A DNA stretch of 42,014 bases from Deltaproteobacteria bacterium (GTDB taxonomy: Bacteria > Desulfobacterota > B13-G15 > RBG-16-54-18): the NCBI GenBank assembly GCA_019308925.1, contig JAFDHG010000011.1, positions 1 through 42,014 on the forward strand, given 5' to 3'. This document shows, in pieces, positions 3,503 through 41,655 of this stretch (positions within the stretch are counted from its first letter, which is position 1; every line of letters begins with the position of its first letter). The translations under genes were made by a program, and so were the position numbers. The notes under the pieces are model-generated. The model did no database searches. It had not been told where the DNA came from and saw nothing but the letters and a program-made list of their open reading frames with translations.

Positions 3503-4282
3503 ATGCTGAGCAAAAGGATTATCATCTGCCTGGATGTCAAGGAAGGCAAGACCACTAAAGGTATCAAGTTTAAAGGAAATATAGACGTAGGCGACCCTGT
3601 GGCCATGGCCAAGGAGTATTATGAACAAGGTGTGGATGAGCTTGTCTTCTATGATATTACTGCATCATCTGATAAGAGGGATATCATTATAGATGTAGTA
3701 GAAAAGGTAGCAAGAAACATATTCATCCCATTTACTGTAGGAGGTGGGATCAGGTCACTGGATGACATGTACAATATCTTAAATGCCGGTGCAGAAAAGA
3801 TAAGTATAAATGCTGCTGCTGTCCTAAACCCGGACCTCATTGCGCAAGGTGCTAAGTTCTTTGGAAGTCAGTGTATTGTTTTGGGGATGGATGCAAAGAT
3901 GGTAAAAAGCAGTGCCAAGGTCCCCTCTGGATATGAAGTATTTATAAATGGTGGTAGGACACCCATGGGCATAGATGCTGTAGAATGGGCAAAAAAGGCC
4001 CAAAGCTTAGGTGCTGGTGAAATTTGCCTCAACTCCATTGATGCGGATGGCACAAACCAGGGATACGAACTTACCCTGACATCCATGATATCCAATGCTG
4101 TTTCCATACCTGTAATTGCATCCGGTGGTGCTGGTAAATCTGAACACCTAAGAGACGTATTTATAAAGTCTGGTGCAGATGCAGCGCTCATCGCCTCTAT
4201 GGTTCACTATAACCGGTATACTGTAGGTCAGATAAAGGCCTACCTTGCAAAGGAAGGGATACCGGTCCGGGAGGTCATATAG
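3503..4282 (+). CDS. hisF: Imidazole glycerol phosphate synthase, cyclase subunit HisF
   Basis: 259-residue (beta/alpha)8 barrel that condenses PRFAR with ammonia from HisH to give IGP and AICAR. The N-terminal catalytic Asp is in IICLDVKEG (about residue 10), and the second in VLGMDAK (about residue 129). The phosphate-binding loops are VGGGIRS and ASGGAG. The sequence [15 protein letters not shown] and [12 protein letters not shown] is, as I recall, the style of deltaproteobacterial HisF. It starts 2 bases after hisH stops. Nothing suggests degradation. Confidence 0.92.
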
Positions 4283-4310
4283 GATCTCTGAAAGGTGATA
4301 GACACCCTTC

Positions 4311-4706
4311 TTACTCCTTAGCTTGTTTCCTTAGATTCACTATGTTAAGCCCCTTTTTTCCAAAAGACTCAAGGTGCCCATCAGTGGTGTATATAACGCT
4401 GCATCCTCCTCTGAGCAGGGAGGCGAGGATTAGCGAATCCACAAGGGGCATTCCGGTTCCATGGCTGATGCGGGCTGCCTCTTCGGCCTCTCCTTCTTTC
4501 ACCGGCACCCAGACAATGGCCTCCTTCAGGAGATTCGAAAGCTCAGAGGCTACCCTTCCTCTGATGATATGCCTCAAGACCTCTGATAGCACTACGGTAG
4601 AGGATATGAGGGTTGCGTCAGAATTCATGACTCCGATGGCCTCGGTATTGCCTTCCTGGAGGGAGAAGAAAAAACCGGTATCAATGCCTATCAGCTGAGC
4701 GCTCAC
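4311..4706 (-). CDS. PIN-domain ribonuclease toxin (VapC-like)
   Basis: 131-residue PIN domain with the four acidic metal ligands in order: Asp9 (GIDTGFF), Glu42 (VLSEVLR), Asp90 (PLVDSLILAS) and Asp109 (TTDGHLE). VapC-type toxins cleave RNA with Mg2+ at such a site. The start is GTG at 4706, preceded by GGAGGAG about 8 bases upstream on the minus strand. The start lies inside the end of the antitoxin gene (26-base overlap), so translation is probably coupled. The upstream ribbon-helix-helix partner supports a toxin role; specificity cannot be read from sequence. Confidence 0.88.
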   Translation of the reverse strand: MSAQLIGIDTGFFFSLQEGNTEAIGVMNSDATLISSTVVLSEVLRHIIRGRVASELSNLLKEAIVWVPVKEGEAEEAARISHGTGMPLVDSLILASLLRGGCSVIYTTDGHLESFGKKGLNIVNLRKQAKE

Positions 4707-4920
4707 GATGGATCTCCTCCCAGGTCTCCCAGGTGCCCAAGGGCCGTGTCTCCAAGAGAAGTCTTACCACACCCTCCCTGGCCTTCCTTTTACGCTCTGC
4801 TTCCAGGTAAACCTTCACCGCTTCCCTTAGAATCCTGGAAACAGGCTTGCCTTTCAGTTGTGCCTCTGCCCTCAGCTTCTCTTCCAGATCCTTTGGCAGA
4901 TAAAAGCTCACTGCCGGCAT
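4681..4920 (-). CDS. Ribbon-helix-helix antitoxin (CopG/VapB-like)
   Basis: 79 residues. The N-terminus (AVSFYLPKDLEEKLRAEA, then GKPVSRILREAVKVYLEAE) is a typical ribbon-helix-helix: a short beta strand followed by two helices. The C-terminal third (ETRPLGTWETWEEIHRERS) is the likely toxin-binding tail. A GGAGG sits 6 bases before ATG 4920. The gene overlaps the PIN toxin start, and a strong promoter with an overlapping inverted repeat lies just upstream, as expected for an autoregulated toxin-antitoxin operon. Confidence 0.85.
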   Translation of the reverse strand: MPAVSFYLPKDLEEKLRAEAQLKGKPVSRILREAVKVYLEAERKRKAREGVVRLLLETRPLGTWETWEEIHRERSADRH

Positions 4921-7106: not shown

Positions 7107-8156
7107 CTATAAGTAACCTTTCTTGTACAGATATTCGGCGTTCAGGACGGCGGCCCCGGCCGCCCCCCGAATAGTGTTGTGGCTTAGAACAAAAAACTTG
7201 TAATCTAAGATAGGACACTCCCTCACCCTTCCCACCACACAGGCCATCCCCCTTCCTTCATCCCTGTCCCGGCGTGGCTGTGGGCGGTCATTCTCCCTCC
7301 TGACCACGATAGGGGGGGAGGGGGCTGAGGGTAGTCCATAACCGGCTAGGGGATCGAACTCCTCCCAGGTCTCGATCAAATCCTCGGGCGAGGCCTCTTG
7401 TTTCAACTCCACGCTCACGCTCTCCATGTGGCCGTCCCGCACATTCACCCTGGTGCAAGAGGCGCTGACCTTGAGCTCGGCAAAGACAAAACGTCCATCC
7501 TCCAGACAGCCCAAGATCTTGAGGGGTTCTGTCTCCACCTTGGCCTCTTCCCCGCCGATGAAGGGGACTACATTATCGATGATATCCAAAGAAGCCACCC
7601 CTGGGTATCCCGCACCGCTTAAAGCTTGAAGGGTTGTCACTATGGCCTTGGTAACCCCAAACCTCTTGTGTAGGGGGGCGAGGGGCATGACCAAACCGAT
7701 GACAGAGCAGTTGGGGTTGGTGATGATATAGCCCCCCCTTGCCCAGCGTCGTTTCTGGATCGGGATGACCTCCAAATGATCGGGGTTCACCTCGGGGACC
7801 AGGAGAGGGACATCGGGGGCCATCCGGTGGTTGCGGGAGTTGCTACTCACTACATATCCTGCTTGGGCAAACTCCTCCTCGATAGGGCCGGCCACGTTGG
7901 CATCAAGGGCCGAGAAGACCAGACGACAGTCCAGCTCTGGAGTGCACTCCTTTACCAAAAGCTGGGCCACAGAAGGGGGAATGTCACCCTCCAGCTTCCA
8001 CCTCCCCTCCATCACCTCCCCATAGGGGCGACCGGCACTACGCTCTGAGGCCGCTACCTCGGTTACCTCGAACCAGGGGTGTCCATCCAGGAGCTGGATA
8101 AACCTCTGACCCACCATCCCGGTGCCCCCCAAGATCCCCACTTTAATCCTCTTCAT
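7107..8156 (-). CDS. asd: Aspartate-semialdehyde dehydrogenase (archaeal/fungal type)
   Basis: Reduces aspartyl phosphate to aspartate semialdehyde with NADPH, the branch point to lysine/DAP, threonine and methionine. 349 residues. N-terminal Rossmann motif GILGGTGMVGQRF; catalytic Cys150 in ITNPNCSVIGL; an active-site His near residue 243 in RVNVRDGHMESV; and the C-terminal HNTIRGAAGAA. The length and the 'TNPNCS' form fit the archaeal-type branch rather than the E. coli branch. It is third in a minus-strand run: ParB-like, Fe-S protein, asd, GAF. It starts 20 bases after the Fe-S gene and its stop abuts the GAF start. It supplies the pathway of dapL at the window's left end. Confidence 0.93.
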   Translation of the reverse strand: MKRIKVGILGGTGMVGQRFIQLLDGHPWFEVTEVAASERSAGRPYGEVMEGRWKLEGDIPPSVAQLLVKECTPELDCRLVFSALDANVAGPIEEEFAQAGYVVSSNSRNHRMAPDVPLLVPEVNPDHLEVIPIQKRRWARGGYIITNPNCSVIGLVMPLAPLHKRFGVTKAIVTTLQALSGAGYPGVASLDIIDNVVPFIGGEEAKVETEPLKILGCLEDGRFVFAELKVSASCTRVNVRDGHMESVSVELKQEASPEDLIETWEEFDPLAGYGLPSAPSPPIVVRRENDRPQPRRDRDEGRGMACVVGRVRECPILDYKFFVLSHNTIRGAAGAAVLNAEYLYKKGYL

Positions 8157-8176
8157 ATCTGCAGCAACCCTCCAGA

Positions 8177-9277
8177 TTAGTCCTTCAGAGAATCGAGGAC
8201 GATTTGCGAAAAATAGACCACCTCCTTACCGATCTCCTTGGCCTTAGAGGTAGAACTTAGTTGAAAGGTACAGAAGGGGCAAGGGCTTACCACCACCTCC
8301 CCCGGGGCCATCTTCAGAAGCCGGGAGGCCATCTCCGTCGAGAGATCACGGTACAGAGATCTGATCCCACTGCCTGAACCGCAGCAGGGGGCCTGCTCCC
8401 TGCTGAGCTCGGTATCTCTCACCTCAGCTCCGCACCAGGCGAGCAGTTCCCTGGGCTCCTCAGTTATCCCCTCTCCCCTGGCCAGGCGACAGGGGTCTTG
8501 GTAGACGAGGGTCCTTTTTACCTTTTGCAGGAGGGAGCGGTTCTCCTTTAAGGCTTCGTATATCACCTCCACTACATGTGAGACCTGAAAGGGGAATTCC
8601 CCAAGGACATCAGGATAAAAATACTTGAAGCACTTCAGACAGCCGTTGCAGGGGATAATAAGTCTCTTTATCCCCAGGCCCCTGAACCTATCGACGTTCT
8701 TCTGAAAGAGCTCTCCTGCAAGATCGACGTCTCCCGCCTCATAGATGTAGGTACCACAGCAACCCTCATCCTCCAGGATCATAAAGTCGACCCCCAACCG
8801 TTTTAGGGCGAGATAAGAGGCGGTGGCAGCATCTTTCACCAGGTAAGAGGGAAGGCAGCCGAGGTAGAGGAGGGTTTCCGATTCCTTTCGGGGGAACTCT
8901 TCGGGTAGCCACTCCAGGCGCTTGCTCGGGTCGCCGTTGACAGCATTCCCCTTTTTGAAGATCCCCCCGATGATCTTCTTCCCCCGCTCCAGGGGTCCTA
9001 ACCCCCTCTTCACCAGTCCTCTCCTGCCAGCGTTCACTATCTGGGTGATTTCTATCTCCACAGGGCAGACCGTCTCACACTTCATACACTTGGGACAATT
9101 GTAGAGACTCTCCACCATCTGCTCGGAGATATCACCACCTTCCAACACCTCCCGTACTGTCTGCAACCGGTGCATGGGCGAGAAGAGCTCTTCACCCGTG
9201 ATCTGGTAGGTGGGGCAGACCTCCATACATTGCTCACATTCGTTGCAGGACTCTATCTGCTCGAGGACCTTCTCCAT
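8177..9277 (-). CDS. Fe-S oxidoreductase with two 4Fe-4S motifs and two CCG domains (HdrD/GlpC-like)
   Basis: 366 residues. The N-terminus carries two ferredoxin motifs, CNECEQCMEVCP and CPKCMKCETVCP. Two cysteine-rich CCG domains follow: GCCGTYIYEAG...CNGCLKCF and APCCGSGSGIRS...CPFCTF. This arrangement is that of heterodisulfide-reductase subunit D, GlpC and related electron-transfer subunits of anaerobes. There is no membrane helix, and no flavin or thiolase partner is next to it, so the redox partner is unknown. It lies between the ParB-like gene and asd with gaps of 54 and 20 bases, probably co-transcribed. The family is clear; the substrate is not. Confidence 0.85.
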   Translation of the reverse strand: MEKVLEQIESCNECEQCMEVCPTYQITGEELFSPMHRLQTVREVLEGGDISEQMVESLYNCPKCMKCETVCPVEIEITQIVNAGRRGLVKRGLGPLERGKKIIGGIFKKGNAVNGDPSKRLEWLPEEFPRKESETLLYLGCLPSYLVKDAATASYLALKRLGVDFMILEDEGCCGTYIYEAGDVDLAGELFQKNVDRFRGLGIKRLIIPCNGCLKCFKYFYPDVLGEFPFQVSHVVEVIYEALKENRSLLQKVKRTLVYQDPCRLARGEGITEEPRELLAWCGAEVRDTELSREQAPCCGSGSGIRSLYRDLSTEMASRLLKMAPGEVVVSPCPFCTFQLSSTSKAKEIGKEVVYFSQIVLDSLKD

Positions 9278-9331
9278 CTCTTACCTTCTTTTTTAAGGCG
9301 AAGCTTACTATAACAGAAGAGTTATTAAAGA

Positions 9332-10309
9332 TCAACGACCTTGGCCGAGTTCCTTCAGGGGGTCTTTATGAGTGCCCTCCTTCTCGATGATCTGATGAAG
9401 CTTGGTAACCAGCTCCCTGAACTTTCTGAAATCTCTGAATCTGAGCTCCATCCTGAACTGATCCCCCTCGAAGAAGGCTGGAGGTTGAAAAGAGATCTGG
9501 GGGGGGAGGGAGAGGGACCGCCTATACTCAGCAAACCTCCCCTCTAACTCTGTCAGGCGGGGGTACCTCATCTCCTTGAGGACCCTCCTGGCCCTCTCGA
9601 GCCGCTGGGGCCGCGGGGTCTGCTGATCGCCAATGACTTCCTCTATCTCCCCCCTGGCCAATAGGGAGGAGATGGATACCCCATCCCTCAGAGAGATCTC
9701 CCGCAAAAAGGTGATGATCTCCTTAACGCGGTTTTCCCCCGGCCTCAAGGCCTGCAGCAGGGGGTGGATAGCCCGCTGCCCCTCCCTGTTGAGGTGGAGG
9801 AAGAGGACCGAGGCGGAGAGGGAAAGACCTTCCCTTACCAGATATTTCTTCAAGTCTTCTTCCAATCCTAAAAGGCCGGTTACCTGCTTTAAGATCCTGA
9901 TGTTGGGCTGAAGACCCAGGAGGGGGAGAAAACGGTCTATCATCTCCCTCTCATCAACCCCGAAAGAGATGAGTTTCCCCAAGGCCTGGGCCTTCTCCAT
10001 GAGGTTGAGGGGGCGCAGCAGATTGTGTCCCAAACTTAGCAGCAGGGCCTGAAGGTCGCCCAATTCGCCATGGGAATAGATGAGGGCCTCCGCCTCGGAG
10101 ATAGAGAGATGACGCAAGGCTTCGGCCCTTTTAAAGCCACAAACGAGCTGATACCATCCATCACCCCTCACCCGCACGAGGAGGGGTTCCAGGAGGCCGA
10201 CTAACTGGATGGAGGTAAGTAAGGGCTCCAGCTCTGGCATAAAGGTGATGGCAAAGGTGGTATCCTCCAGATCGATCTGGGCCAAGGAGACCCTCTCTAA
10301 TCTGCGCAT
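9332..10309 (-). CDS. ParB-like nuclease/partition-fold DNA-binding protein
   Basis: 325 residues from the ATG at 10309, chosen because GGGAGGAG precedes it and the first residues (MRRLERVSLAQIDLED) match ParB-domain starts. The frame itself is open to 10375. A ParB N-terminal domain (SIQLVGLLEPLLVRV, YQLVCGFKRAEALRHL) is followed by a KorB/ParB-like helix-turn-helix part (LMEKAQALGKLI, LGLQPNIRILKQVTGLLGL) and a long helical C-terminus. No ParA gene and no parS are evident, so this is probably one of the stand-alone ParB-like regulators rather than the chromosome-segregation ParB. It heads the run leading to asd. Confidence 0.75.
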   Translation of the reverse strand: MRRLERVSLAQIDLEDTTFAITFMPELEPLLTSIQLVGLLEPLLVRVRGDGWYQLVCGFKRAEALRHLSISEAEALIYSHGELGDLQALLLSLGHNLLRPLNLMEKAQALGKLISFGVDEREMIDRFLPLLGLQPNIRILKQVTGLLGLEEDLKKYLVREGLSLSASVLFLHLNREGQRAIHPLLQALRPGENRVKEIITFLREISLRDGVSISSLLARGEIEEVIGDQQTPRPQRLERARRVLKEMRYPRLTELEGRFAEYRRSLSLPPQISFQPPAFFEGDQFRMELRFRDFRKFRELVTKLHQIIEKEGTHKDPLKELGQGR

Positions 10310-33559: not shown

Positions 33560-36500
33560 ATGAAGGTAACGCGAAGGGACTTCATAAAGATTTCTGGAGT
33601 TACCGCGACAAGTTTATATTTAACTCAATTGGGGTTTGATCTCTCCCCTGTGTCTGCCTACGCCAGCGGACTCCGCATCAAGGGTGCCAAAGAGACTACT
33701 ACCATTTGCCCCTACTGTGCAGTTGGGTGCGGTATTATCTGCCACTCTAGGGGAGGGAAGGTGATTAACACCGAGGGGGATCCCGACCATCCCATCAACC
33801 AGGGTGCGCTCTGCGCCAAAGGTGCAGCCCTATTTCAATGGGTGAACAACAAAGACAGGATTACTACACCCCTTTATCGGGCCCCAGGTAGCGACAGGTG
33901 GAAACAGGTCTCCTGGAACTGGGCCTTAAGCGAGATCGCCAAGAGGGTCAAGGCTGCCAGGGACGAGGGATTCACCAAGGTCAACGCCAAGGGCCAAAGG
34001 GTAAACAGGACAGAGAGCATCGCTCACATTGGCTCTGCGGCGTTGGACAATGAGGAGTGCTGGATCCTCCAGGCCATGATGAGGGCCCTGGGGCTCGTCT
34101 ATATCGAGCACCAGGCCCGTATCTGACACAGCGCTACGGTAGCGGCTCTGGCAGAGTCGTTCGGACGTGGCGCCATGACCAACCACTGGATTGATATCGG
34201 CAACAGCGATTGCATCCTCATCATGGGGAGCAATGCGGCGGAGAACCACCCTATATCCTTTAAATGGGTGACCAAGGCCATGGAACGGGGAGCCACCCTC
34301 ATTAACGTTGATCCCCGGTTTACAAAAACTTCTTCAAAGTCCGACATCTATGCACCCATCCGTTCTGGCACCGATATAGCCTTTTTGGGTGGGATGATAA
34401 AATACATCCTGGACAACAACCTCTACTTCCGGGAGTATGTGGCCGAGTACACCAACGCCCCGTTCATCCTGACTGAGAAGTACTCCTTCAAAGATGGGCT
34501 CTTTTCAGGATATAACCCCAATACCAAAAGCTACGACAAGAGCTACTGGGCCTTTGAGAAAGATGGAAAGGGTATCCCCAAAAAGGATAAATCCTTCAAG
34601 CACTCCCGCTGTGTCTATCAATTGCTCAAGAAACACTATTCACGCTATACCCTTGACAAAGTATCAGCTATCACGGGGACACCTAAAGAAGACCTTTTGA
34701 AGGTCTATAAGACCTACGCAGCCACGGGTGTCAAAGGTAAGAGTGGAACCATCATGTACGCCATGGGCTGGACCCAGCATACAGTTGGTGTCCAAAACAT
34801 CCGCACCATGGCCATAATCCAGCTCCTTTTGGGCAACATGGGGGTGGCTGGAGGCGGGGTCAACGCCCTAAGGGGTGAGTCCAACGTGCAGGGCTCCACA
34901 GACCACTGCCTGCTCTGGCACATCTGGCCCGGCTACCTCAAGACCCCCAGGGCTTCCAACACTACACTCGCCGCCTACAACAAGAGATGGACCCCCAAGA
35001 CCAATGATCCTCTGTCTGCCAACTGGTGGGGTAACTACGCTAAATACTCGGTGAGCTTCCTCAGATCCATGTTCGGCAAGGCGGCCAAGCCGGAAGACGA
35101 GTTCGGCTACCAGTGGCTCCCCAAGGTGGACGACGGGGGCACCTACACCTGGCTCGACCTATTTGACAGGATGTATAGAGGCAAGTTCACTGGGTTCTTT
35201 GCCTGGGGCCAAAACCCTGCCTGCTCCGGGGCCAACTCCAACAAGACCAGGCAGGCGTTGGCCAAATTGAAATGGCTGGTGAACGTCAACATGTTCGAGA
35301 ACGAGACGGGTTCTTTCTGGAAGGGCCCAGGGATGAACCCCAAGGAGATCAAGACCGAGGTCTTTTTCCTGCCCTGTGCGGTATCAGCGGAGAAGGAGGG
35401 CTCGATAACCAACTCCGGCCGCTGGATGCAGTGGCGATATGCCGCGGCCAAGCCGCCTGGAAAGGCCATGGGTGATGGCGAGATGATCGTCGAGCTATTC
35501 AATAAAATCAGGGGGCTCTACAAGAAGGAGGGGGGCGTTTTCCAAGAGCCGATCTTAAACCTCAAGTGGGACTACACCACCAAGGGAAAGTTTGACTCCC
35601 ACAAGGTGGCCAAGGAGATAAACGGCTACTTCTTGAAGGACGTCACCATTGAGGGCAAGACCTTCAAGAAGGGGACCCTCGTTCCTTCCTTCGCCTTTCT
35701 GAAGGCAGATGGTTCCACCTCGTCGGGCAACTGGCTCTACTGCAACTCTTACACTGAGAAGGGGAACATGGCTGCCCGCAGAGGCCTTAAAGATGCCTCC
35801 GGCATTGGGCTCTACTCCCAGTGGTCCTGGTGCTGGCCGGTGAACCGCCGGATCATCTACAACCGTGCCTCTGTAGACCTGAAAGGCCAGCCTTGGGACA
35901 GGAAACATCCGGTGATCCGCTTCGTCGGTGAAGTCAAAAATGGCAAGTACGTGACCAAGAAGTGGGTCGGTGACGTGCCAGACGGCGGATGGTACCCAAT
36001 GATGAACCCGGACGGGACACGGCGCGCTGATGCCAAATACCCCTTCATTATGAAGCCCGAGGGTCATGCCCACATCTTCGGACCAGGCCGGACAGATGGC
36101 CCTTTCCCCGAGCACTACGAGCCCTTGGAATGTCCAGTGGATAGGAACCTGATGAACTCACAGTTTATTAACCCCACGGTAAAGCTGTTCAAGACCGAAA
36201 TGGACAAGTTCCTCACCTGTGATCCTCGCTATCCATTTGTGGGCACAACCTATCGGGTAACCGAACACTGGCAGACAGGACTCATGACTCGGTGGCAGCC
36301 GTGGTTGGTTGAGGCAGAACCCCAGCAGTTCTGCGAGATGAGCGAGGAGCTGGCAGCCATGAAGGGCATTAAGAATGGCGATAAGGTTGTTGTGGAATCG
36401 GCCAGGGGCAAGGTGACTGCGATAGCCATCGTGACCAAGCGGTTCAAGCCCTTCAAAATCATGGCTCAGATTGTCCACGAGGTGGGGCTTCCGTGGTGCT

Positions 36501-36622
36501 TTGGTTGGGTGACCCCCAAAGACGGCGGTGATTCCTCCAACCTGCTTACCCCGTCGGTGGGCGATCCCAACACGAAGATACCTGAGACCAAGGCCTTCAT
36601 GGTGAACGTGCGGAAGGCATAA
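33560..36622 (+). CDS. fdhA: Formate dehydrogenase catalytic subunit, selenocysteine-containing (FdhA)
   Basis: 1020 residues when the in-frame TGA at 34124-34126 is read as selenocysteine (Sec189); the two open parts are in one frame. N-terminus MKVTRRDFIKISGV is a Tat signal, so the enzyme is exported to the periplasm. A 4Fe-4S site CPYCAVGCGII...GALCAKG (residues about 50-92) precedes the Mo/W-bisPGD domains. The Sec context EHQARI-Sec-HSATVAALAESFGRG followed by MTNHWIDIGNSD matches FdnG-type enzymes. Oxidises formate (or reduces CO2) at a Mo or W site. A SECIS-like hairpin directly follows the TGA. FdhB starts 13 bases downstream. Confidence 0.96.
34124..34173 (+). promoter_or_regulatory. 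SECIS-like hairpin of fdhA with UGA (Sec) codon
   Basis: After the TGA (34124-34126), GCGCTACG (34131-34138) pairs over eight positions with CGTGGCGC (34166-34173), one G-U. Inside, GGCTCT (34144-34149) pairs with AGAGTC (34153-34158) around a GGC loop. The apical loop lies about 23 bases after the UGA, within the usual bacterial range for SelB recognition. The codon context matches known formate dehydrogenases. Confidence 0.8.
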
Positions 36623-36635
36623 AGGAGGTGATCCC

Positions 36636-37373
36636 ATGTCTGATAAATCGTTTTTTATCGATACCACCAAGTGTACTGCCTGTCGAGGCTGTCAGATAGC
36701 CTGTAAACAGTGGAACCAACTCCCTGCCACCAAGACCAAGAACTGGGGAAGTCACCAGAACCCGGCGGATCTCTCCTTTGTAACCTACAAACTCGTTCAC
36801 TTCTCCGAGGTGGTCTCGGAGGGAGAGCTCCGCTGGTACTTCTTCCCTGAGCAGTGCCGTCACTGCGTTGAGCCTCCCTGCAGAGATATCGCCGAGGAGC
36901 TGGGATACAAGGATGCCATAAAGGTAGATAAGGCCACTGGGGCAGTGCTCTTTAACCAAAAGGTGAAGATCAAACCGGAAGACTTCAATGAGATCAAGGA
37001 ATCCTGTCCCTTCAATATTCCGAGATATGACCCAAAGCGGATGGTCATGTCCAAGTGCACCATGTGCATCGATCGGATCTCCAATGGTTTGTTGCCAGCG
37101 TGCGTCAAAGCCTGTCCCACCGGGGCCATGAACTTCGGTGATCGGGACAAGATGCTGGCCTTGGCCAATAAGCGCCTGAAGGAGTTGAGGGCCAAATACC
37201 CCAAGGCCCAACTCCTCAACGAAGAAGATGTCCGCACCATCTATCTGATCATAGATGACTCTGAGAAGTACTATGAGTTTGCCAAGGCAAAGGACACTTT
37301 GGGGATTACAAGGATGATAGCCATGAAGAAGCTTATTCGACCCCTGGTAAACCTCTGGGGAGCCAAGGGGTAG
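36636..37373 (+). CDS. fdhB: Formate dehydrogenase iron-sulfur subunit (FdhB)
   Basis: 245 residues. Ferredoxin-type cysteine groups: CTACRGCQIACKQW (Cys13-Cys23), CRHCVEPPC, CPFNIP, CTMCIDRI and CVKACPTGAM, enough for three to four 4Fe-4S clusters that carry electrons from FdhA. The C-terminus (RMIAMKKLIRPLVNLWG) has no transmembrane helix, and no cytochrome b subunit is present. The FdhAB pair is therefore probably a soluble periplasmic enzyme that gives electrons to a c-type cytochrome, as in Desulfovibrio. AAGGAGG precedes ATG. A strong terminator follows. Confidence 0.93.
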   Translation: MSDKSFFIDTTKCTACRGCQIACKQWNQLPATKTKNWGSHQNPADLSFVTYKLVHFSEVVSEGELRWYFFPEQCRHCVEPPCRDIAEELGYKDAIKVDKATGAVLFNQKVKIKPEDFNEIKESCPFNIPRYDPKRMVMSKCTMCIDRISNGLLPACVKACPTGAMNFGDRDKMLALANKRLKELRAKYPKAQLLNEEDVRTIYLIIDDSEKYYEFAKAKDTLGITRMIAMKKLIRPLVNLWGAKG

Positions 37374-37400
37374 TTTAATCATTCACGCAACGTAATGGAT

Positions 37401-37444
37401 GGGCTTGTCCCGAAGGGTTTCCTCTCGGGACAAGCCCTTTCTTT
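37401..37444 (+). terminator. Intrinsic terminator after fdhAB
   Basis: GGGCTTGTCCCGA (37401-37413) is perfectly complementary to TCGGGACAAGCCC (37425-37437); 13 base pairs with an 11-base loop, followed by TTTCTTT (37438-37444). It lies 28 bases after the fdhB stop. It separates the structural genes from fdhE-fdhD, which may get a lower level of transcription by read-through. Confidence 0.88.
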
Positions 37445-37488
37445 GCTCATCTGGATGGTATATTATCAAAACAGAGAGGGTTGCGCTT

Positions 37489-38367
37489 ATGGGGGAGTCG
37501 TTGGAGAAGATAAAAGAGCGGATCGCCTGGTTTAAGGAGGAGCGGCCCATCTATCGGGAGATCCTCGATTTTTATGCTCAGGTCCTGGAAGAGCAGGGGA
37601 GAGTTCGACCCCAGTTGAAGATTAGAGCCTTGGATCTCGATAAGAAACTGGTAAAATCCAGGCAGCATAGCGGAGTTCCCCTGCTACAAAGAGAGGAATT
37701 CGAGATAGACCTTGAGGCCGCAAAGGGGCTCTTTCATGCCCTCTGCCTGATCGGCCAAGGGGCAACGCAGAAGATGGGGGAGGAGATACCGAAGATTGTA
37801 AAGGTGTTACAGAACGATAAATTGAACTTGGAGCATCTCCTCAGCAGACATTATGATGGGGATTATCTCGACCAAGAGGCAGAGAGGTGGGGATTTGATA
37901 TGGGGATCTTTTTCTTCTTGGTCAAGGCCAGCGTCAGGCCTTCCTTGGAGGCCCAGATGGAGCAACTAAGGGGGTCTATCGATCTGGAAGAGTGGCTACA
38001 GAGGTATTGTCCCATCTGCGGTTCATCCCCCCAGATGGCAGAGTTAAGGGATGAAGGGGGAAAAAGGTATCTTCAGTGCTCCCTTTGCGGCTGCCATTGG
38101 CGGTGGGAGCGTTTGGCCTGCCCATATTGTCACAACAAGGCATTTGACTCGTTGCATTACCTCTTCTCCGAAGAGGAGGAGGCCTATCGGGTGGATCTAT
38201 GCGATCGATGCAAGGGATATATCAAGACGGTGGATTCCCGCAAACTCGACTATGAGCCCTATTTGGATCTCGAGGACGTCGTTACCATCCACCTGGACCT
38301 CCTGGCTTTGGAGAAGGGTTATAAAAGGCCTGTCCCCACCCCTTGGGGGCCGATGATCGTTAAATGA
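37489..38367 (+). CDS. fdhE: Formate dehydrogenase accessory protein FdhE
   Basis: 292 residues from ATG 37489, chosen because GAGAGGG lies upstream and the longer frame start (37399) falls in the terminator. The helical N-terminal half is followed by zinc-ribbon pairs: CPICGSSP, CSLCGCHW, CPYCHNK and CDRCKGYIKTVD, then the conserved DYEPYLDLEDVVTIHLDLLA and GYKRPVPTPWG. FdhE assists maturation of exported formate dehydrogenases. Its end overlaps the fdhD start by 4 bases (ATGA). Confidence 0.92.
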   Translation: MGESLEKIKERIAWFKEERPIYREILDFYAQVLEEQGRVRPQLKIRALDLDKKLVKSRQHSGVPLLQREEFEIDLEAAKGLFHALCLIGQGATQKMGEEIPKIVKVLQNDKLNLEHLLSRHYDGDYLDQEAERWGFDMGIFFFLVKASVRPSLEAQMEQLRGSIDLEEWLQRYCPICGSSPQMAELRDEGGKRYLQCSLCGCHWRWERLACPYCHNKAFDSLHYLFSEEEEAYRVDLCDRCKGYIKTVDSRKLDYEPYLDLEDVVTIHLDLLALEKGYKRPVPTPWGPMIVK

Positions 38368-39128
38368 GGGAAGGGGAATTGAAGACGTTAAAGAAGTACC
38401 CTGCTCTTTTGATACAGGACGGAAGGGCGCAAGAGGTCGAAGACTGGGTGGTTGCAGAGGACTCTTATGAGCTCTATCTCAACGATACCCTGGTGGATAC
38501 AATGGTGGTCTCTTTCTCGGACCTAGAGGCCCATGCCATGGGTTACGTGGTGACCGAAGGACTGGTTAAACCAGAAGAGGTAAAGGATGTCCAGCAGAAA
38601 GGACATCAGGTCTTTGTCAGCACCGTGGGTAGGAAGAAGGTTAACCCATCCAAGACCCTTTGGCGGAGCTCGGCCTATCGGGGCAGTGAAGGGGCATCGA
38701 TTCCCGTGGTTTCCTCCAGCGCAAAGATTACCCCTGCCCTGATCGTGCAGTGTGCCAAGCAGATCTCTGCCCAGGCCGAGAACTGGAGAAAGACCGGGGG
38801 GATACACATCTCCCTGCTGTTCAATCAACAGGGGGGGGTGATCAAGGTGGTCGAAGATATCGGGCGGCACAACAGCGTGGACAAGGTAGTGGGATATGCC
38901 CTCCTTCATCATATCCCTTTGACTGAGACCATCTTGGTCTGCAGCGGCAGGCAGCCTGAGGGGATGATCCTGAAGGCTGCCCGTGCAAGAATCCCCATTG
39001 TTGTCACCAAGGCCGCTGTGACCGATAGAGGGATTGAGACAGCAGAACGGTTAGGGGTGACCCTCATCGGCTTTGCCAGGAAAGGGCGTTTTACCATCTA
39101 TTCCCATCCAGAGAGGGTGAGCACGTAG
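38364..39128 (+). CDS. fdhD: FdhD-like sulfur carrier/maturation protein lacking the CxxC motif
   Basis: 254 residues. FdhD passes sulfur from a cysteine desulfurase to the Mo/W-bisPGD cofactor and depends in E. coli on a CxxC near residues 121-124. The fold landmarks are present (LNDTLVDTMVVSFSDLEAHAMGYVVTEG, EDIGRHNSVDKVVGYALL, VCSGRQPEGMILKAARARIP, GFARKGRFTIY). Where 'SSCGxCG' is expected this protein reads SSAYRGSEGAS (residues 102-112), with no cysteine. Only two Cys remain (VQCAK, LVCSG) and neither is in a pair. So the classical sulfurtransfer route cannot use this motif. It overlaps fdhE. Confidence 0.88.
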   Translation: MREGELKTLKKYPALLIQDGRAQEVEDWVVAEDSYELYLNDTLVDTMVVSFSDLEAHAMGYVVTEGLVKPEEVKDVQQKGHQVFVSTVGRKKVNPSKTLWRSSAYRGSEGASIPVVSSSAKITPALIVQCAKQISAQAENWRKTGGIHISLLFNQQGGVIKVVEDIGRHNSVDKVVGYALLHHIPLTETILVCSGRQPEGMILKAARARIPIVVTKAAVTDRGIETAERLGVTLIGFARKGRFTIYSHPERVST

Positions 39129-39201
39129 TTTTTTTCTTGTTTCCTCCTCTTCTTTGCATTAAAATGCAATAAGACTGAAACCTAAAAGGGGAGGGTGAAA
39201 A

Positions 39202-40299
39202 ATGGCTAAACGAATTTCAAGAATCGTTTTCTTTCTCCTTTTTTTCGTCGCATTAATAGTCCCCTCCGCTCGGAGTGAGGTCAGGCATGTCACCATCCTT
39301 TACAGCAACAACATCAACGGACAAGTTAATCCCAGCGGGTGAGGGGCGGCCAGGGCTGGCGGTCTGGCCAGAAGAGCAGGGTTGATAAAAGAGATAAAGA
39401 AGGCAGGGGGAGACCTCCTTATTCTCGATGCGGGGGACCTCCTCTTCAAGAGATACGTTACCCCCAGCCTTTCCGCTTCTCTTCAGAAGGAGGCCTTATT
39501 GGACGCCAAATTGATGGTCGAGGCATTCAACCTCATGGGGTGTGACGCTGTAGGGATAGGGGATTACGAGCTCACCTTGGGCGCAAAGGCCTTTGCCGAG
39601 CTGAAAAAGAGGGCCAAGTTCCCCTTTGTTTCCTCCAATGTGATCTTTAAGGATGGCCGTAGGATGCCCGTCCCCTATGTGATAAAAAGGGCAGGGGGCC
39701 TGAGATGGGGAATTTTTAGCCTCTTGAGTGCCAACCTATCTTCAACATCTAAAACCCGGGAGTGGAAGGTGCTGGACCCGCTGGAGAAGGGTAGGGAGGT
39801 GGTAAAGAAGCTGAAGAAGAAGGCTGATCTTATCATCCTTTTGGCCGACATGCCCTTGAAAGAGCTCAGGGCGCTCCTGTCCCAGCTGCAGGGGATAGCG
39901 ATAGTCGTGGCGGGGCATAGCTCATCCGGGATGAGAAGGCCCATGCAGGTGGGGCAGACCATCGTGGTTCGCAGTTATGGTTTGGGCAGATATCTGGGGA
40001 TGTTGGATCTCTATCTCAAGGACCCCAAGGCATCCTTTGTTGATGAGGCCAGGATCATGACGTTGGAGCGAGATCTGGCAGTGGTGAACAACAAGATAAA
40101 AGGGGGAGCCCCAGGGAACTTTGAAAAGGTAAAGGCAAAGATGGAGGCCCAGCTCAGGGAGTTGAAAAGGGGGAATATCTATCGAAATCAACTCATTCTC
40201 TTATCATCCAGGCTCCAGGAAGATAAAGGGGTGAAGAGACTAATGCAAGATTTCAGCGCCAAGAAAAAGGAGCTGAAAAAGAGGTGTCCTGAGAAATAG
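39202..40299 (+). CDS. Secreted UshA/5'-nucleotidase-like protein with in-frame UGA (candidate selenoprotein)
   Basis: 365 residues if TGA 39340-39342 is read as Sec47. ATG 39202 follows GGGGAGGG. Residues 1-27 are a signal peptide (RIVFFLLFFVALIVPSARS). The mature part starts like metallophosphatases: VTILYSNNINGQVNPSG-Sec-GAARAGGLARRAGLIKEI, LLILDAGDLLF, DAVGIGDYELTLGAKAF, VVAGHSSSGMRRPMQ. Homology to the family runs straight across the TGA (GGLARR is the usual sequence after 'P.G.G'), so it is not a pseudogene stop. Two metal-ligand motifs are changed (TND.HG to SNNING; GNHEFD to GDYEL). The next gene upstream is fdhD, 73 bases away. A gene caller that ignores Sec would start at 39382. Confidence 0.8.
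39340..39371 (+). promoter_or_regulatory. SECIS-like hairpin with UGA (Sec) codon of the UshA-like gene
   Basis: After TGA 39340-39342, CTGGC (39356-39360) pairs with GCCAG (39367-39371) around a GGTCTG loop. The loop begins 18 bases after the UGA. A GGU-type apical loop at this distance resembles the E. coli fdhF SECIS loop. An alternative stem, GGCCAG (39348-39353) with CTGGCC (39364-39369), also exists, so the fold needs modelling. Confidence 0.65.
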
Positions 40300-41088: not shown

Positions 41089-41655
41089 TCACAATAATTT
41101 TGGAATCATCCGCCAGGGGACTTTTCTTTTGTACTCTTTGTATTCCTCCCCATATTTTTCCAGAAGCTCCTTCTCTTCAAAATGTATAATGGGTAGATAA
41201 AGAAGGGCATAGGGAATCGAGAACAAAAGCGCATACATTGATTTAAGGAGAACAGCCATGCCTACAGCCAATAGAAAATTACTCATGTATAAAGGATTTC
41301 TAACGGTTCCATATACGCCCCTTGTAACCAAGCTTCCTTTACTTTTTAAGGCAGGGGCTATACCTATCTCTTTTTGAGCCAATATCTTTATGATGAAATT
41401 TGATCCCAAGAGAATTATCCCCACAGTCAAGGCAGCAGGAGTTTGAATTGTTATCCTTGGTCCTTTAGTAAAGGGTAAAGCGATGATGGGTGCTATAAAA
41501 GTCAGAAAAATAAAAATTCTGACAATGGGTTTTGGTATTCTGTTTTTAACCTTGGTTTGCATACCAGGTAGACTGAGCACTACTATCGTTATCGTATAAC
41601 CCATTAGATAGGCACCTATCCAGAGAAGGGGGTTGGCCCAAAAATTATTTGACAT
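41089..41655 (-). CDS. Isoprenylcysteine/phospholipid methyltransferase-like membrane protein
   Basis: 188 residues with about five hydrophobic helices (for example LLWIGAYLMGYTITIVVLSL, PIVRIFIFLTFIAPIIALPF, FLLAVGMAVLLKSMYALLFS). The conserved C-terminal SAM-binding part reads GVYGTVRNPLYMSNF and HFEEKELLEKYGEEYKEYKRKVPWRMIP, as in ICMT/PEMT-type enzymes. Bacterial members methylate small or lipid substrates. Overlaps the next gene upstream by 11 bases. The target is unknown. Confidence 0.85.
   Translation of the reverse strand: MSNNFWANPLLWIGAYLMGYTITIVVLSLPGMQTKVKNRIPKPIVRIFIFLTFIAPIIALPFTKGPRITIQTPAALTVGIILLGSNFIIKILAQKEIGIAPALKSKGSLVTRGVYGTVRNPLYMSNFLLAVGMAVLLKSMYALLFSIPYALLYLPIIHFEEKELLEKYGEEYKEYKRKVPWRMIPKLL

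Follow-up and report, generated by a model that had tools for sequence, protein, structure and literature searches.

Positions 39202-40299 of the 42,014-nucleotide stretch of deltaproteobacterial DNA analysed here (the window) very likely constitute a gene for a selenoprotein of the UshA-like kind. The reading frame, the conservation of the selenocysteine (Sec) codon, the hairpin linked to Sec, the Sec machinery of the genome, the loss of metal ligands and the gene order were all computed directly. The reading of the protein towards which we lean is that of an exported, metal-free selenoprotein of the UshA fold, in which Sec47 would be a redox residue resolved by Cys362 and which would serve a periplasmic formate dehydrogenase. 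The UshA-like selenoprotein family is already named and is uncharacterised; what is new here is an [S/A/V]-G-U motif that lacks a partner Cys, the invariant tail residue Cys362, the loss of the dimetal site throughout the group and, probably, the gene order with the formate dehydrogenase (fdh) genes.

The UGA codon and its hairpin

Read from its ATG at 39202, the frame contains a single in-frame TGA, at 39340, and ends at a TAG stop at 40297-40299 (Table 1). The Shine-Dalgarno-like site, the ATG and the signal-like N-terminus, which a preliminary description of this DNA had read in frame through the TGA, are all present by direct reading and translation, and the AlphaFold2 model of the protein has a helix at residues 2-18; a scan for sigma-70 promoters at the gene returned none. 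Pairs of open reading frames of this size in the window are bridged only by TGA, in five cases, and never by TAA or TAG: besides the UshA-like gene these are the Sec codon of fdhA, two cases antisense to fdh genes and the ordinary stop that ends a methyltransferase-like gene (41089-41655).

Chance as the source of the TGA is excluded by comparison with orthologues, which have the same codon in a frame under selection. Within the GTDB family of the window (f1), a search of related genomes found four orthologues, from four other genera, with identities to the window protein of 70% (G007), 60% (G006 and G004) and 56% (G001); all four have TGA at codon 47 and no other stop. The TGA is shared by all seven members of the subgroup with the [S/A/V]-G-U motif, and dozens of more distant relatives in the phylum each have a single in-frame TGA. 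Codon comparison of the five f1 orthologues indicates that the frame is under purifying selection before as well as after the TGA: pN is below pS on either side for almost every pair, with only 21 codons on the 5' side, and in the 3' part dN is 0.16-0.32 and dS 0.53-1.65.

Given the orthologous TGA and the selection flanking it, a true stop or a sequencing error is very unlikely, and we judge it extremely improbable that there is no selenoprotein here at all, whether for these reasons or because translation begins at an internal TTG (39382) that opens a frame of 305 residues. Apart from that TTG frame, such a view can point to the hairpin of the window, which taken alone is no more stable than shuffled sequences; against it stand the recurrence of TGA at this codon in independent genomes, the conservation and purifying selection upstream of the TGA, and a Sec-specific hairpin together with a full Sec pathway in the genome. 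Routine annotation of such genes would begin downstream of the UGA, and the active site would be lost.

Table 1. Features of the UshA-like gene and of the fdh genes upstream of it, in window coordinates
Feature	Position	Strand	Basis
fdhA, Sec formate dehydrogenase alpha subunit, Sec UGA at 34124	33560..36622	+	TIGR01553, 1514.8 bits
fdhB, formate dehydrogenase beta subunit (4Fe-4S)	36636..37373	+	TIGR01582, E 1.1e-41, under cut-off
fdhE-like accessory gene	37399..38367	+	PRK03564, E 4.8e-19, and TIGR01562, both under cut-off
fdhD, formate dehydrogenase accessory sulfurtransferase	38364..39128	+	TIGR00129, 180.3 bits, over cut-off
Shine-Dalgarno-like site, GGGGAGGG	39188..39195	+	direct reading
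UshA-like selenoprotein gene, 365 aa, Sec at residue 47	39202..40299	+	translation with TGA as Sec; NF041198, E 1.1e-64, under cut-off; orthologues
Signal-like N-terminus, residues 1-25, putative export signal	39202..39276	+	hydrophobic stretch and AxA-like site (L012: AWA-DS)
TGA codon 47 read as Sec, context PSG-U-G	39340..39342	+	TGA in 5/5 f1 orthologues and 2/2 f32 relatives
bSECIS-like hairpin, CUGGC-GGUCUG-GCCAG, over the GGLAR codons	39356..39371	+	Sec versus non-Sec members; covariation (see text)
Hairpin stem, CTGGC	39356..39360	+	
Hairpin loop, GGTCTG	39361..39366	+	
Hairpin stem, GCCAG	39367..39371	+	
Cys362 codon, C-terminal tail RCPEK	40285..40287	+	invariant in 7 aligned members without proximal Cys; alignment A2 and classification

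The genome to which the window belongs (2.40 Mb, 99% complete) was searched for the Sec pathway, as the preliminary description had advised, and selA, selB, selC and selD were all found: selA at 630.9 bits, selB at 399.7 bits, tRNA-Sec at 79.4 bits and two selD genes, each with an in-frame TGA. That description had also pointed to a Sec formate dehydrogenase in the window, and FdhA with its Sec UGA is indeed encoded there. Two minor features of the sel genes may be recorded. Past selD, at about 1222-1368 of one contig (L068, G000:C22), lies a short open reading frame (PGSYAFFERDFGGKGAEITLAEAKELLGIG...) with a match to the C-terminus of SelB (E 2.9e-4), which is either a small gene in its own right or the remains of one. 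The second selD (L069, G000:C3, about 3912-4748) seems to be out of frame near its 3' end, the model match covering positions 1-282 of 311; this frame loss is either real or an assembly error.

The hairpin begins 14 bases downstream of UGA47 and has its loop GG 18 bases past the TGA, where the preliminary description had placed it. Taken singly it is ordinary, with a stability z of -0.28 to 0.38 against shuffles, and the minimum-energy fold at the site is an overlapping pairing in another register; because the energy z-scores of a single hairpin are uninformative, we judged it by comparison. Alignment of homologues at residue 47, which had been suggested as a check, gave Sec in 51 of them and CGC, CxxC or CC in others, such as L082, L083, L088, L090 and L093. 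The inner stem run averages 4.6 of 6 pairs in the 51 Sec members versus 0.8 in 16 non-Sec members (Mann-Whitney P 6e-8, uncorrected for relatedness), and GGT encodes the second Gly in 40 of the 51 versus two of the 16. Across 33 distinct Sec sequences the stem is paired in 82% of cells, with a covariation score of 0.238 that was matched by no slid register and by none of 500 shuffles, which ignore relatedness. One heme-fused protein nested among PCGU Sec proteins (L087, G117:C168) has PSGR at the site, with neither Sec nor Cys, and has also lost the hairpin. These comparisons point to a hairpin tied to Sec, strong in the Sec relatives and weak or absent in those without Sec, and with its help SelB and tRNA-Sec would read UGA47 as selenocysteine.

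Family, fold and the lost phosphatase site

Among NCBIfam models, the best match of the window protein is NF041198 (UshA_like_PCGU), at 218.9 bits against a cut-off of 275 and over 5-365 of the 519 model positions, while NF049981 (UshA_like_Sel_2) gives 59.2 bits against a cut-off of 140. Since these matches lie below the cut-offs and UshA-like families have been published, we regard the window protein as a divergent relative of a known kind. A 2026 review (PMC13188914), which cites two selenoprotein-family papers by Haft and colleagues (2023, 2025), lists both NCBIfam families among the selenoproteins, and an ocean survey of 2008 (PMC2398784) had already included UshA-like CxU proteins of COG0737 in its counts; in the papers found, with surveys since at least 2008, no tested function is given for UshA-like selenoproteins. 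The preliminary description, which had mentioned UshA-like Sec families, was right that they exist and right about the selenoprotein, and had rated its novelty too high, the families being already published.

With NF041198 and the COG0737 CxU proteins the window protein shares the N-terminal domain, the position of Sec, GGLAR with the overlapping hairpin and the lost phosphatase ligands. It differs from NF041198 in having PSGU rather than PCGU, in having no C-terminal heme domain (it contains no CxxCH), in its 365 residues against 519 model positions and in its place beside fdh genes. With NF049981 it shares the heme-less form and Sec at the same place, but not the CxxU motif; three CxxU relatives that lie, like the window gene, downstream of fdhE (L071, L072 and L078) all score below the NF049981 cut-off. 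Most NF041198-type relatives are fused to a c554-type cytochrome domain. A paralogue in the window's own genome (L064, G000:C32, about 8686-9972) combines PCGU with a four-heme C-terminal Cytochrome_C554 domain, which fits electron transfer by the family at large; at 248.5 bits it, too, is under the NF041198 cut-off, and its hairpin is weak (CTG GGG GGA ATA GCT CGG).

The AlphaFold2 model (pLDDT 91.3, pTM 0.88; pLDDT 66 in the C-terminal tail) has its best PDB match in 3ivd, a 5'-nucleotidase N-terminal domain (E 7e-22, TM 0.69 by query length), and the sequence-profile match is to 2z1a (E 2e-44). Pfam gave no match for the full window protein, 5_nucleotid_C (PF02872) included, a domain that is present in L038, and, used alone as a query against genome contigs, the protein drew just one match, a distant Paenibacillus nucleotidase. 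Following the UshA metal ligands and catalytic residues through the alignment (A1), we observed that all are kept in the canonical relatives L037 and L038, and that none of the 30 Sec/Cys members shown has kept the motif I His, the NHE His or the last His of GHxH. In the window protein the UshA residues D41, H43, N116, H117 and H217 and position 254 correspond to N37, N39, D121, Y122, D216 and S241; only D79 and H239 are kept, and both vary within its subgroup. The altered metal-ligand motifs remarked on in the preliminary description are real, but they are a property of the whole Sec/Cys group, for which phosphatase chemistry is unlikely because the ligands and the catalytic His are lost group-wide. 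The window protein shares the fold of the N-domain with the UshA and CD73 5'-nucleotidases and YfkN, but has Sec and lacks their dimetal site, catalytic His and C-terminal domain, and is therefore probably not a phosphatase. In its mature form it would be exported and would have the N-terminal domain fold of UshA-type 5'-nucleotidases, free of metal.

The main rival to this reading is a selenoprotein of sulfur metabolism, in which Sec on a SoxB-like fold would bind sulfane or S-sulfonate sulfur and pass electrons to cytochromes, the proximity of the fdh genes being incidental. SoxB thiosulfohydrolase is among the best-scoring functional relatives, homologous over residues 51-277 (TIGR04486, E 4e-22), though at 78.2 bits it lies far under the cut-off of 550, and the cytochrome fusions of most NF041198-type relatives, the paralogue in the same genome among them, would fit such a role. 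However, SoxB chemistry depends on a dimetal site, which the UshA-like Sec/Cys group, the window protein included, has lost, and we consider the sulfur role unlikely.

Possible cysteine partners of selenocysteine

The Cys that accompanies Sec varies in position: it is found as CxU, mostly in members with c-type heme, as CxxU in heme-less members, and as UxxC in L102. In the last case (L102 / L131, G253:C219) the motif is GSGUKSC, with Cys three residues past Sec, an arrangement that is named in neither NCBIfam family. Because the partner Cys shifts around a fixed Sec, the whole UshA-like family may carry out redox chemistry on a former phosphatase fold. We read a redox role from the presence of Sec, the loss of the metal site and the varying position of the partner Cys; Sec47, which lies in the loop that follows the former metal motif I, would do the work in a thiol/selenol redox centre.

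No Cys lies near Sec in seven members, namely the window protein, four proteins of f1 and two of f32, whose motifs are PSGU, PAGU, PVGU, DSGU and ASGU. In these seven, Sec47 and Cys362 are the only invariant Sec/Cys columns (alignment A2), the tail being otherwise variable. Among the heme-less Sec proteins of a trimmed set, all 7 that lack a proximal Cys carry one in the tail, against 0 of 23 that possess a proximal Cys, a count from which L030 was left out as a long branch; L030 (G041:C41), with PLRLU, has Sec and neither a proximal nor a tail Cys and is an exception to the pattern. The correlation covers only two lineages, maybe one, and the tree yields at most two independent pairs, on which a test cannot reach significance. 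We considered two independent losses of the proximal Cys and did not uphold them: a single clade of the seven is not rejected (AU p 0.6), and the deep branches of the tree do not resolve. Simple compensation, in which a tail Cys was gained as the proximal Cys was lost, is weakened by L030 and by many heme-fused members that have a tail Cys alongside CxU, on whose account the tail Cys may be inherited rather than compensatory. The distribution is nevertheless suggestive of a tail Cys that replaces the proximal Cys as the partner of Sec.

Alternatively, Sec47 might be a metal ligand, or a lone selenol nucleophile that has no resolving Cys, with the tail Cys devoted to a lipid, to structure or to a partner protein. 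Enzymes with a single Sec and no resolving Cys of their own are known, the Cys adjoining Sec is gone in the [S/A/V]-G-U subgroup, and L030 does without both; yet Cys362 is invariant across seven divergent sequences in a tail that otherwise varies, and other lineages nearly always keep a Cys beside Sec. We regard this alternative as distinctly improbable and lean to a redox pair: S, A or V takes the place of the proximal Cys in this clade, and Cys362 would be the likely resolving residue for Sec47.

The formate dehydrogenase neighbourhood

The UshA-like gene lies 73 bases from fdhD, on the same strand as the upstream genes fdhA-fdhB-fdhE-fdhD, and the adjacency noted in the preliminary description recurs as a conserved gene order in several genomes. 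Linkage to fdh genes is found in four genomes of f1 (that of the window, G000, and G001, G004 and G006), in three of f9 (G195, G088 and G258) and in one of f95 (G278). The order in G001 and G006 is that of the window. In G004, fdhD is a weak partial match only, and a LysR gene, a multiheme cytochrome gene (7549-8652) and a rhodanese gene (8699-9148; L061) separate the fdh genes from the UshA-like gene. LysR adjoins the UshA-like gene in G007 as well, on a short contig that has no fdh genes, and G007 gave no fdhE match at the threshold used. The linked f9 and f95 members are of the CxxU type and follow fdhA-fdhB-fdhE, directly in G088 and G258 and some 4 kb off in G195; other f9 members have no fdh link. 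We rejected a strict fdh operon rule, since the UshA-like gene lies within about 1.5 kb at only 6 of the 30 closest fdhE loci, one of the six being a broken copy. With linkage in several f1, f9 and f95 genomes and its absence in others, the association is recurrent and not obligatory.

The rhodanese and the multiheme cytochrome of G004 would suit a protein of sulfur metabolism, but among the fdh-linked loci only that of G004 showed them. That the gene repeatedly follows fdhAB-fdhE(-fdhD) suggests service to formate dehydrogenase: as we read it, the protein would serve the periplasmic Sec enzyme, perhaps maintaining it in the reduced state or exchanging electrons with a periplasmic partner. For the fdh-linked subfamily as a whole we offer, tentatively, the broader hypothesis that a dead phosphatase fold was remade into a redox enzyme with Sec at a fixed place, that its resolving Cys shifted among CxU, CxxU, UxxC and the far C-terminal tail, and that the protein is dedicated to Sec formate dehydrogenase as a redox or protection factor in the periplasm. 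The heme-less subgroup, with its lone Sec, invariant tail Cys and fdh-adjacent place, offers a handle on the function of an uncharacterised family.

In G002, a frameshifted, broken UshA-like copy occupies the place after fdhE. This relic of a short UshA-like gene (L157, G002:C36:5866-6470) lies directly after fdhE and consists of fragments in different frames; its motif has a Cys codon (VGCG), and its tail can still be read as EKGCK.
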